NCBI RefSeq assembly: GCF_005049285.1
Contig: NZ_SOSC01000001.1
Coordinates: 1 to 64,000 of the forward strand
DNA length: 64,000 nucleotides
Direction: 5' to 3'
From: Halorientalis salina
Lineage (GTDB): Archaea > Halobacteriota > Halobacteria > Halobacteriales > Haloarculaceae
Of this stretch, positions 34,792 to 52,208 are shown one piece after another (within the stretch, counting starts at the first letter, position 1; each line of letters opens with the position of its first letter). Position numbers and translations under genes: made by a program. The notes beneath the pieces were generated by a model. That model ran no database searches. It saw nothing but the letters and a program-made list of their open reading frames with translations, and had not been told where the DNA came from.

Positions 34792-35982
34792 ATGGAAGAC
34801 GACGGTGATCCATCGGCAGGCATCGATCGCCGCCGTGTGCTCGGAATGCTCGGCGGAGCGACGGCCACCATCGCGGGCTTCTCTGGGCTCACGACGGCCA
34901 CGCGGGCGGGCGACGATGGCCGAACGTACAGACTAGTCCAGGGAGATCAGTGTCACGAACTGACGCCGCTTACGGACGATGAACTCGCCACCGCGTTCTA
35001 CGACTGGGACACGTGGGAGACGAAGTACAGTTCGGAGGGGACGACCGACCTCCAGCGACCCGACACGAGCATCCTGTTTCTCTACGAGACGCCGGACGGG
35101 GTCGTCCATCTGGTCGTCGTTCACGGGAAGTTGGGCGGCGACCACGACGGGGGGTCGGCCACCTTCGAGTTTCACGACATGCCGGAGCACGGTGACTGGA
35201 TCGTACAGGACGACTACTACGACGGGTCGACGAACTACGACAACTGGTCCGTGGACAGCGACCACCACACCGTCGACTGGACGTGGGCCGGTGGCCGAAC
35301 GGATGGCGGCCTCTACGGCCCGTTAGGAGACGATTTCGAGGTCCGCATCGAACCCCTGTTCAACGGGGACGCGGCGCTCTACGGCGAGTACTACGACGGC
35401 GAGGTGACCGAGTGGGAGGCGCTCTCGGGCGACCGGTCGGACCCCGACCGAATCACGCTCGACATGAGCCGACCGATTCGGCTCGAAGTCGGAGCCTGCG
35501 CAGAGGACGGGGACGGCCGGGACGACACCGACGATGGTGACGATGACGACAGTGATGAAGACGATGGAACCGGGGGCGACCACGAGGACGGCGGTCACGA
35601 CGATGAAGACGAAAGCGACGGTGACGATGACCGTGACAGCGACGACGATGACAGGGGAGACGAGGACGAAGACGACGAAGACGGCGATGACGACGAAGAC
35701 GGCGATGACGACGAAGACGGCGATGACGACGAAGACGGCGATGACGACGAAGACGGCGATGACGACGAAGACGGCGATGACGACGAAGACGGCGATGACG
35801 ACGACGATGAGGACGAGGAAGAAGAGGAGGAAGAAGACGACAACGATGGTGATGACGATGAAGGGGCGGAGAATCCACCACCGGGACACGGTGGAACGCC
35901 GCCAGGTCACGGTGGTAAACCACCCGGTCAAGGCAAGTCACCCGGCGAACGCGGCCCACCCGGAAGGCGTGGCAGTGAGTAA
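34792..35982 (+). CDS. Tat-exported protein with Asp-rich hexapeptide repeats and PPG tail
   Basis: The 396-residue protein has a Tat signal (DRRRVLGMLGGATATIAGFS, twin Arg near 13-14). A folded acidic domain follows (about 40-240, with QGDQCHELTPLTDDELATAF and many aromatic residues). Then comes a long D/E-rich region (about 245-360) containing DGDDDE repeats, an acidic block, and a C-terminal Pro-Gly part (PPGHGGTPPGHGGKPPGQG). The acidic repeats suggest a surface or secreted Ca-binding or wall-like protein. I do not recognise the N-terminal domain. The repeat region is prone to length change. Confidence 0.7.
   Translation: MEDDGDPSAGIDRRRVLGMLGGATATIAGFSGLTTATRAGDDGRTYRLVQGDQCHELTPLTDDELATAFYDWDTWETKYSSEGTTDLQRPDTSILFLYETPDGVVHLVVVHGKLGGDHDGGSATFEFHDMPEHGDWIVQDDYYDGSTNYDNWSVDSDHHTVDWTWAGGRTDGGLYGPLGDDFEVRIEPLFNGDAALYGEYYDGEVTEWEALSGDRSDPDRITLDMSRPIRLEVGACAEDGDGRDDTDDGDDDDSDEDDGTGGDHEDGGHDDEDESDGDDDRDSDDDDRGDEDEDDEDGDDDEDGDDDEDGDDDEDGDDDEDGDDDEDGDDDEDGDDDDDEDEEEEEEEDDNDGDDDEGAENPPPGHGGTPPGHGGKPPGQGKSPGERGPPGRRGSE
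35680..35805 (+). repeat. Tandem 18-bp repeat, seven copies
   Basis: The unit GACGGCGATGACGACGAA (encoding DGDDDE) is repeated without interruption: six perfect copies from 35680 to 35787 and a seventh differing at its last base (35788-35805). Being in frame it stays open on copy-number change. The antisense reading is hydrophobic and not a gene. Confidence 0.95.
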
Positions 35983-49775: not shown

Positions 49776-50141
49776 ATGAGACGGAAACTCTACCTCATCG
49801 CCGGCCTCGTTCTCGCGGTCTCGTCGTTCCCCACGCTCGTACTCATCCCCGACCTCTCACTGCTGGACCAGGTCGGTAGCGCCCTCACTGGCCTCGGCGG
49901 CCTCCTGTTCGTCGCCGCCGCACTCAGTGACCGATCCGTACTCGACTCCTCGTCCGTCGAGTGGTTCCACCTCGCGGGTGCCGGCGATATCGCGATCGGC
50001 CTCGGACTGCCGACCTCGCTGGCGGCGACGAGCGACGATATCGTCCTCGTCGGGGCCGCGTCCCTCGCCGGCCTCGTCCTCGTCATCATCGGCATGGACA
50101 TGCTCCGCGGCGGCGAGTACGTCGACGTCAGCGGCCGCTGA
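49776..50141 (+). CDS. Small four-helix membrane protein
   Basis: From ATG 49776 the 121-residue product shows four hydrophobic stretches: LYLIAGLVLAVSSFPTLVLI, ALTGLGGLLFVAAAL, LAGAGDIAIGLGLPTSLAAT and VLVGAASLAGLVLVIIGMDM. No signature of a known transporter is seen. It ends next to the duplicated 3' end of elp3. Function unknown. Confidence 0.65.
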   Translation: MRRKLYLIAGLVLAVSSFPTLVLIPDLSLLDQVGSALTGLGGLLFVAAALSDRSVLDSSSVEWFHLAGAGDIAIGLGLPTSLAATSDDIVLVGAASLAGLVLVIIGMDMLRGGEYVDVSGR

Positions 50142-50154
50142 GAACCCTCGGACG

Positions 50155-50184
50155 CTACAACCGCTTCGAGACGTACGGTCCGTC
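50155..50184 (-). repeat. Copy of the elp3 3' end (30 bp), outer direct repeat
   Basis: This 30-base stretch matches 50410-50439 with two mismatches. On the minus strand it encodes the last residues of Elp3 plus stop (DGPYVSKRL and stop), although the gene now ends at the inner copy. The two copies flank a 225-base insert and look like a target duplication or attachment-type repeat. Confidence 0.8.
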
Positions 50185-50207
50185 CGTGCATGACCTTTTT
50201 CGTCGGC

Positions 50208-50378
50208 GGGGTCGCTCACTTCGTTCCCGACCCTCTTCTCGCAAAAGCTGTTCCCGCGAGCTTGCGAGCGGGAGCTTGTCAGAGCTTGCTCTGACAGTGG
50301 ACCAAAACGGCCGCTCGCTCTCCGCCTCGCGGCTTCGCCGCTCGTCCGTCCCGAGATGCTCGTTGTACTCGCATCTCG
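50208..50378. repeat. Hairpin-rich insert between the elp3 end duplications
   Basis: Several inverted repeats follow one another: GGGTCG...CGACCC (about 50209-50233), near-palindromic TCCCGCGAGC/GCGAGCGGGA (about 50252-50273), TGTCAGAGC-TT-GCTCTGACA (50277-50296, perfect 9 bp), GCGGC-TTC-GCCGC, and CGAGATGC...GCATCTCG (50352-50378, perfect 8 bp). It encodes no protein. It resembles intergenic MITE-like or REP-like blocks containing TCGCTCACTTCGTTC that occur in haloarchaea. Confidence 0.65.
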
Positions 50379-50409
50379 CGTCGCTCCCGGTACAACTGGT
50401 AACGACTGC

Positions 50410-50439
50410 CTACAGCCGCTTCGAGACGTACGGCCCGTC
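50410..50439 (-). repeat. Copy of the elp3 3' end (30 bp), inner direct repeat
   Basis: This copy is the real end of the elp3 reading frame (DGPYVSKRL then stop). It pairs with 50155-50184, 255 bases away in the same orientation, with two base differences. Confidence 0.85.
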
Positions 50440-52071
50440 TTGCTTGTACCCGAGTTTCTCCCGGTAGTACTGCCGGACGCCGATCCCCGAGAGCACCGCC
50501 AGTTTCTCGTAACCGCCCTCGACAGCCAGGTCCTCGGCCTTCGCGAGCAGACGGCGACCGTAGCCGCGGTGTTGATGCTGGTCGGCTTCGCTCTGCTGGC
50601 CAACCCCGACTTGACTCCCGTACACGTGGAGTTCTCGGACGACAGCGGCATCGGCCAGTTCCCGCCGCACCGGGTTGTTCGGGAACCGAAGCCGACAGAA
50701 CCCGATCAGCAGGTCTTTCTCGCGGTCCTCGAAGCTGATGAAGTGCTCGCGGCCGCCGCCGACCTCGTATTTCATCACGTCGAGTTCGACCTCCTCGGGT
50801 TCCTCGTCGTTCATGCCGACCTCGCGACAGCGGATGCAATCGCAGGTCCAGCCGTGTTCCTCCATCCGCTGGCGGGCCAGCTGTCGGAGGTTCGACTTCC
50901 AGACGCCGCCCTCGATGAAGTCCGCCGGGATGTCCCGCTGGACACGCTGGAGTCGCGTGTATTCCGGGATCATCGATTTGATCTCGGCGACCAGTTCGGC
51001 CGCCTGTTCGTTGCCCAGCGGCTCGTAGTCGCCGCGGTGATACATGTCGTACGTCGCGGTCCCCTCGACGATCAGCGTCGGGTAGATCTTGAGGAAGTCC
51101 GGCCGCCAGTCCGAATTCTCGAACAGTCGGCGGAAGTCCTCCAGACACATCTCCTCGCTCATCCCAGGCTGGCCGGGCATCATGTGGAAGCCGACCTTGA
51201 ACCCCGAGTCCCGAAGCCGGCGGTTCGCGTCGAGGGACTCCTGGACGCCGTGGCCTCGGTGCATCTCGCGGTTGATGCGTTCGTAGGTCGTCTGGACGCC
51301 GACCTCGACTTTCGTCCCGCCCAGGTCGAGCATTCGATCGATCTGCTCGGGGTCACACCAGTCGGGCTTGGTCTCGAACGTCGTCGCGATGTTGCGGATC
51401 GAGTTCGTCTCGTTTTCCGCGATGACGTCCTCCAGATAGCGGAACTCGTATTCCTCGGGACTCTCGGCGAAGCTCTCACCCTCGGCGGGTTCGGGTTGGC
51501 TCTCCGGGTCGTAGTCGTTCATCGCCTCGATGGCGCGCTTGACGAACCACTCCTGGTAGTCATGAGAACGGGCGGTCATCGTCCCGCCCATCAGGATGAG
51601 TTCGACCTTGTCGACCGGGTGGCCGATCTCCCGGAGTTGCTCCAGTCGGAGCGTCACCTGTCCGTACGGGTCGTAGTCGTTTTGCTTCCCGCGTGCGGCC
51701 GCGGGTTCGTGACCGGTGTAGCTCTGGGCCGAGGAGAACTCCGAGTCCGGCCCGCCGGGACAGTAGAGACACTTCCCGTGGGGACACCGCTCGGGCGAGG
51801 TCATGATCGCGACCGGCGAGACGCCCGATGCCGTCCGAACGGGTTTGCGCCGGAGGACCTCCTCTAGCTCCTCGCGGCGCTCCAGGGGCGCGAAATCGAG
51901 GAGTTCGGAGTTCTTGGGGACCTTCGGCGCGGAGTACTCCGAACAGACCTCGAGTTTGGCCTTCTCGACGTCGTCGCGTTCGAGGTCGCCGGCCAGGATG
52001 CGGTCGACGAGTTCCTGACAGACCTGCTCGAAGGCCTCCGTCTCGGTCGGGTCGGCTGTCTCTGTACTCAT
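50410..52071 (-). CDS. elp3: Archaeal Elp3: radical SAM / GNAT tRNA uridine-34 modification enzyme
   Basis: The 553-residue protein has a radical SAM domain with the cluster cysteines in RCPHGKCLYCPGGPDSEF. It also has MGGTMTARSHDYQEWFVKRA, QTTYERINREMHRGH, FHMMPGQPGMS and KIYPTLIVEGTATYDMYHRG. A C-terminal GNAT domain follows (HQHRGYGRRLLAKAEDLAVE and KLAVLSGIGVRQYYREKLGY). It starts the carboxymethyl modification of U34 in tRNA. ATG 52071 (MSTETADPTETEAFEQ) is the common haloarchaeal start; ATG 52089 is possible. The 3' end is duplicated downstream. Confidence 0.93.
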   Translation of the reverse strand: MSTETADPTETEAFEQVCQELVDRILAGDLERDDVEKAKLEVCSEYSAPKVPKNSELLDFAPLERREELEEVLRRKPVRTASGVSPVAIMTSPERCPHGKCLYCPGGPDSEFSSAQSYTGHEPAAARGKQNDYDPYGQVTLRLEQLREIGHPVDKVELILMGGTMTARSHDYQEWFVKRAIEAMNDYDPESQPEPAEGESFAESPEEYEFRYLEDVIAENETNSIRNIATTFETKPDWCDPEQIDRMLDLGGTKVEVGVQTTYERINREMHRGHGVQESLDANRRLRDSGFKVGFHMMPGQPGMSEEMCLEDFRRLFENSDWRPDFLKIYPTLIVEGTATYDMYHRGDYEPLGNEQAAELVAEIKSMIPEYTRLQRVQRDIPADFIEGGVWKSNLRQLARQRMEEHGWTCDCIRCREVGMNDEEPEEVELDVMKYEVGGGREHFISFEDREKDLLIGFCRLRFPNNPVRRELADAAVVRELHVYGSQVGVGQQSEADQHQHRGYGRRLLAKAEDLAVEGGYEKLAVLSGIGVRQYYREKLGYKQDGPYVSKRL

Positions 52072-52208
52072 TCGCAGTTGTGTTTCCATCGTCCGTTCGG
52101 CCGAATAAGCGTGTCGTCTCGCTCACCCCGTCGGGGGTCGACGCCGCCGTTTTCGTCCGTACCTATATTTCCCACCAGTCACAAGCACTGTCAGAGAGAG
52201 GCGTGTCT

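Follow-up and report, generated by a model that had tools for sequence, protein, structure and literature searches.

The elp3 locus of Halorientalis salina

The elp3 gene of Halorientalis salina lies on the minus strand of the window (the whole 64-kb stretch of DNA that was analyzed) and converges on a small gene on the plus strand. The features of the locus are as follows.

50410..52089, minus strand: elp3 (559 aa), the gene with the duplicated 3′ end; open reading frame with relatives in 38 of 39 related genomes
50410..50439, minus strand: tail copy 1, the functional 3′ end of elp3, encoding DGPYVSKRL and the stop codon TAG; from sequence and repeat comparison
50308..50409, minus strand: 3′ UTR with GC-rich stems, which stops just short of the first T-run; from sequence and stems
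50192..50307, minus strand: a degenerate and enlarged copy of element E, TTTTGGTCCA...AGCTTTTGCG...hairpin...GACGAAAAAGGT(CA); from the consensus of other loci
50250..50297, minus strand: two-hairpin block inside the left arm of E, containing the perfect 9-bp stem; from stems and sequence comparison
50208..50233, minus strand: central hairpin of E, GGGTCGGGAACGAAGTGAGCGACCC; from sequence, the homologous stem covarying in the family
50194..50200, plus strand: CCTTTTT then C, a predicted T5C-type terminator for the convergent gene; from sequence, T5C being known from Haloferax volcanii (PMC7237163)
50185-50190: short filler joining tail copy 2 to E; from sequence
50155..50184, minus strand: tail copy 2, the elp3 end at its native position; from comparison with relatives
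49776..50141, plus strand: convergent gene (121 aa) for a small membrane-like protein; from tblastn, which also placed it beside elp3 in several other Halorientalis

The duplication of the elp3 end, claimed in an earlier note on this DNA, was reproduced as two direct copies (50155-50184 and 50410-50439) that are spaced by 255 nt and identical at 28 of 30 positions. Both copies encode DGPYVSKRL* (the last nine elp3 codons and the stop codon), and the two differences between them are synonymous. Apart from a tandem-repeat region at approximately 35.7 kb, no other direct repeat in the 64-kb window scored 26/30 or better at a distance of up to 600 nt, and the best direct repeat in five codon-block shuffles of the window did not exceed 23/30. 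Short-period direct repeats with lags of 72, 90, and 108 and matches of up to 30/30 were seen at 35660-35810.

The perfect stems reported in the insert between the copies were also present (9 bp, 50277-50285/50288-50296; 8 bp, 50264-50271/50311-50318), and the insert is closed on the side of copy 2 by AAAAGGT, whose single occurrence in the 64 kb is at this site. The 225-bp insert is hairpin-rich, as had been described, but it is not a single unit; it comprises the 3′ UTR and a core of E (approximately 60-70 bp) enlarged by the nested two-hairpin block. This block was found with 91% identity at two more E-like places in the H. salina genome, and a comparable enlargement of E with different hairpins was observed at hisH (L062) and in G322. 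The single-strand fold energy of the whole 285 nt (50155-50439) was unremarkable (z = -1.45), and the evidence for structure comes from covariation in the E family rather than from the folding energy of the window copy. A search of the 64-kb window against Rfam 15 gave no matches at the gathering score. No tRNA was found in the window, and thus it holds no tRNA att site.

Structure and distribution of element E

E is a dispersed family of small structured non-coding elements in haloarchaea. With its context, the consensus is stop - GC hairpin - TTTTT-SG-YCCAS-N-TTTTT - SCGAGNAG - hairpin - CCCGASNNNG - AAAAAGGTGG, and the core measures 61-79 bp in most copies and 147 bp, including a left part, in genus g19. 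Terminal inverted repeats are present (CCA-SN-TTTTT / AAAAA-GG-TGG), with 100% of helix-1 cells paired and with compensatory swaps. The stem formed by CCA/TGG and TTTTT/AAAAA and the inner hairpin show strong covariation (0.242 versus 0.056 in shuffles, with 94.7% of the cells paired), and three E sequences carry the compensatory swap from CCA/TGG to CGA/TCG. A variant element with a matching change on both arms, TTTTAGTCCAGGTTTT...AAAAAGTGG, was noticed at L071, L078, L258, and other loci.

The counts of E in the H. salina genome rest on covariance-model and pattern matches. The covariance model R1 gave 69 matches at E ≤ 0.01, which correspond to approximately 60 elements because some matches represent one palindrome found on both strands; the copy in the window was absent from this list. 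The motif AAAAGGTSS was counted 65 times in the genome, and 14 of these sites were followed by a clear copy of sequence lying 140-300 nt upstream, which was, with few exceptions, the tail of the adjacent upstream gene. Across 120 genomes sampled from the phylum, R1 matched in most Halobacteriales, with sparse and weak matches beyond this order. As no exact match to the E pattern was obtained in viral contigs and no match to the window copy in plasmid records, carriage by viruses or plasmids was rejected.

Gene neighborhoods of E

At 11 of the 61 R1 places in H. salina, the right end of E adjoins a duplicate of the tail of the gene upstream. Three further genes (elp3 and those at L081 and L095) are tail-duplicated although missing from the R1 list, and at least 13 H. 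salina genes have the right end of E near (mostly 0-7 nt) a second copy of their own tail. The earlier note had proposed a search for the same block at other duplicated gene ends, and such ends were found both in H. salina and in other genomes. An element unique to elp3 was ruled out, as other genes carry E too. Judging from their tail sequences, many of the host genes look like conserved housekeeping genes; among them are elp3 and hisH, together with genes that resemble pheT and a thiolase gene.

At approximately 16 other R1 places (about a quarter of the 61), the distance between the right end of E and a convergent gene's stop codon is 0-3 nt, and this is the prevailing kind of neighborhood in G068. 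Examples include L101, L233, L234, L237, L238, and L305-L332; such precision exceeds what termination would require. Tail duplication is absent from more than half of the E copies. Several copies in G013 (L275-L279) directly adjoin sequence resembling a tRNA 3′ end (GGGATTCGAACC...).

The position of the junction varies between genes and species without a fixed core, and several junctions have no microhomology. The repeats flanking E range from approximately 9 to more than 80 nt, with gene-tail repeats given as 27-110 bp. One strand of E carries two T-runs, and the complementary strand carries a single one. Because T-runs occur on both strands and a T5C motif was 95% efficient as a terminator in Haloferax volcanii (PMC7237163), E likely serves as a bidirectional terminator.

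The arrangement at elp3 in other haloarchaea

The last 30 nt of elp3 were found again downstream of the gene in other genomes, with other spacers. A degenerate elp3-tail pattern matched 294 of 392 Halobacteriales genomes, which form the denominator of the elp3 counts. Two matches on the same strand were present in 18 genomes, and they were closely spaced in at least 13 of the 294, representing seven families; these 13 pairs were established from coordinates or fetched sequence. Further duplicated elp3 tails were seen in H. marina, H. pallida, and, weakly, G020. Several of the tails comprise just 8-9 codons and are too short for allele assignment. With a handful of degenerate exceptions, AAAAGGTGG or AAAAGGTCG is found ahead of copy 2. 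An odd junction, GCACGGACGGACCG, is common to H. salina elp3 and G298, which belongs to another genus; this is suggestive, and the two may have a common origin.

According to the earlier note, conservation of the arrangement across distant genera would speak for an old regulatory structure. The arrangement is instead sporadic, with differing spacers and junctions, and a conserved regulatory structure at elp3 was ruled out by this sporadic occurrence. At L038 (G007), a sequence approximately 300 nt downstream of elp3 resembled, by eye, the end of an IS200-type transposase gene.

Empty sites, tail copies, and arrays

Sister species were searched for empty sites, as the earlier note had advised, and empty elp3 ends with the convergent gene nearby were found. 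The elp3 gene of H. regularis (G002) lacks an insert, and 16 nt separate its own stop codon from that of the convergent gene. The corresponding gap is 13 nt for tail copy 2 in H. salina and 16 nt in H. marina (G001). Given the similar gap in the empty sister, copy 2 is the native end, and tail 1, the UTR, and E are the added part. Judged from these empty sites, insertion probably took place as an event.

The tail copies diverged as coding sequences do. In 27 tail pairs, which were pooled and some of which are not independent, 53 codons differed synonymously and 13 nonsynonymously, while 23.5% synonymous differences were expected at random (p about 3e-22). The tails of copy 2 mostly end in a stop codon, which differs from that of copy 1 in approximately ten pairs. 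In many pairs, the similarity stops at the stop codon, and in G283, L090, L111, and L076, it extends into the UTR or to the T-run. The mainly synonymous differences imply that both copies evolved as coding ends; one of the tails may derive from another lineage, or recombination between the two may have exposed both to selection time and again. Neutral decay of a copy in place is disfavored by the synonymous pattern and the differing stop codons. The idea of a mobile unit that rebuilds a gene end, put forward in the earlier note, is partly supported by the empty sites and the blocks elsewhere, but the tails are diverged coding-like alleles and not a fresh duplication.

At hisH, the tail-E arrangement occurs in three of the five Halorientalis examined (H. 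salina, G003, and G002), with 1-2 elements and 2-3 tails, and the sisters G005 and G006 are empty. The hisH tails are nearest to each other within one genome (0, 2, and 7 differences, compared with 9-16 between Halorientalis species), which suggests that much of the exchange occurs between cells of the same species or through gene conversion, and less of it through intergeneric transfer. In arrays, the tails outnumber the elements by one (n elements, n+1 tails), as seen for the L076 gene and hisH in H. salina, hisH in G002, and elp3 in G286, and in each of these four arrays, the last tail is not followed by E. Tandem elements were also found at a gene ending in AENRMHAQNGLL in G002 and at elp3 in G322, and identical tandem units are present in G002. 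Host genes recur among congeners with differing junctions. Both this recurrence and the array rule are predicted by unequal recombination between tail repeats.

Comparison with known systems

The family appears to be undescribed so far; a literature search, limited for subscription papers, retrieved no description of hairpin blocks beside duplicated gene ends. Integrative elements that use gene 3′ ends as att sites resemble E in having a restored gene end on one side and a leftover piece of it on the other. However, they have an integrase and a fixed core, whereas E (approximately 60-300 bp) has neither integrase nor coding capacity. The likeness to att-site integration drawn in the earlier note therefore fails for lack of a fixed core and coding capacity and for the variable length of the duplication. 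An att-site integrative element was likewise rejected at elp3, as 225 bp is too short for an integrase and the junction differs between genes and species.

MITEs, like E, are short, non-coding, and dispersed with inverted-repeat ends, but their target duplication is short and fixed, whereas the flanking repeats of E are long and variable. REP/BIME sequences are extragenic palindromes at gene ends with a possible terminator role, as is E, and differ from it in sequence; no tail duplication is known for REP. The SMR-A and SMR-B elements of Haloquadratum walsbyi are non-coding, approximately 80-110 bp long, and have inverted terminal repeats unrelated to known transposons (PMC3119063). They were reported to leave their target unduplicated and to insert into other mobile elements, which for SMR-A are IS605-type elements and PATEs (PMC3119063). 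E shares with SMRs its inverted repeats, haloarchaeal hosts, and lack of coding capacity, may be of comparable length, and is set apart from the SMR description by its location at gene 3′ ends, often with gene-tail repeats of 27-110 bp. PATEs and IS605-type ends are also haloarchaeal, with palindromes near their ends; PATEs lack terminal inverted repeats and produce no duplications (PMC3119063), whereas E has both terminal inverted repeats and flanking duplications. The haloarchaeal T5C terminators (PMC7237163) share the T-runs with E, which adds structure, dispersal, and tail duplications.

Proposed mechanism and alternatives

E together with two allele-like tails suggests a tiny gene-end cassette that recombination, and not an enzyme of its own, spreads and reshuffles. 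We propose, with about an even chance of being right, that a terminator-like E lies between copies of the host tail and that homologous recombination amplifies, removes, and swaps the tail-E unit. The right end of E (AAAAAGGTGG) would join a point approximately 27-110 nt before the stop codon of a gene, and this first joining would yield gene - tail 1 - UTR - T-run - E - tail 2 - downstream. Homologous recombination between the direct tail repeats would then be able to multiply the tail-E unit (n+1 tails for n elements) or to delete it, and the unit may be exchanged with the same gene in another cell, including one of another lineage. Since a gene tail travels with the unit, E would be able to enter the recipient gene without breaking it. 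This recombination model could account for the arrays, the native position of copy 2, and the coding-like tails; it leaves the first joining and the abutment on stop codons unexplained.

A non-autonomous transposon-like element that inserts at termination regions, with the tails as a long target duplication of variable length, is a possible but rather doubtful explanation. Capture at a staggered break might provide its route, with a duplication spanning the gene tail interior to the T-run. The cleanest case is G283, whose copies show no difference past the stop codon as far as TTTTTCCCCA, after which E starts; the copies at L090 and L111, which extend to the T-run or into the UTR, and the junctions without microhomology also fit insertion. 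The synonymous divergence and the differing stop codons are unlike the neutral decay expected of copy 2, and long variable duplications are atypical of DDE or HUH transposons. The strongest support for transposition comes from the young copies in genus g19. The 147-bp form, whose left part (GCATCCGC-hairpin-GCGGTTCAC-hairpin) is conserved, occurs there in many near-identical copies that have sharp ends and are mostly flanked on both sides by a 9-11 nt direct repeat, CTGTANTGA. A longer intergenic repeat (GGCGCGCCACCGC...CTGTAGTGAGC) was often seen ahead of the homogeneous form at L260-L274 and L364-L376. For the young g19 copies, L266 (G053:C1:663300-664580) was compared with G302 in search of matched empty and filled sites; no clean pair was obtained, as the left and right flanks of L266 matched two separate loci (C11 and C18). 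The split flanks probably reflect recombination between two E copies that rearranged the chromosome. It is chiefly the young copies that hold our confidence in the recombination model at a moderate level.

E may be a vertically inherited bidirectional terminator, with tails that arose as slippage duplications at its hairpins and were kept alike by gene conversion. The presence of E at the same host genes in several Halorientalis, the closeness of hisH tails within genomes, and the identical tandem units of G002 agree with slippage, which we nevertheless consider improbable, since the arrays read through end in a tail without E, G005 and G006 are empty at hisH, and the breakpoints fall at the same end of E in unrelated genes, with short filler. 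Least credible is an antisense role for copy 2, by which the 3′ UTR of the convergent mRNA would carry the complement of the elp3 tail and be ended by the reverse T5 of E. The geometry is suitable, as 50142-50200 on the plus strand would hold the tail complement and then TTTTTC, but wobble-preserving changes between the copies were in no excess (27 versus 25), and the arrangement is sporadic among relatives.

The recombination model could be carried further to an enzyme-free selfish cassette, in which E carries a host 3′ end as a permanent homology arm and homologous recombination alone moves it; we advance this only tentatively. If true, E would be transferred between cells at the same gene, and a working gene end would always be rebuilt. 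The model would account for the recurring hairpin blocks beside duplicated haloarchaeal gene ends, and non-coding elements of this kind could persist harmlessly at essential genes. As each tail copy records alleles of one gene tail, the copies would offer a countable marker of recombination, and it becomes testable whether repeat families spread by homologous recombination alone in a group with frequent gene exchange.
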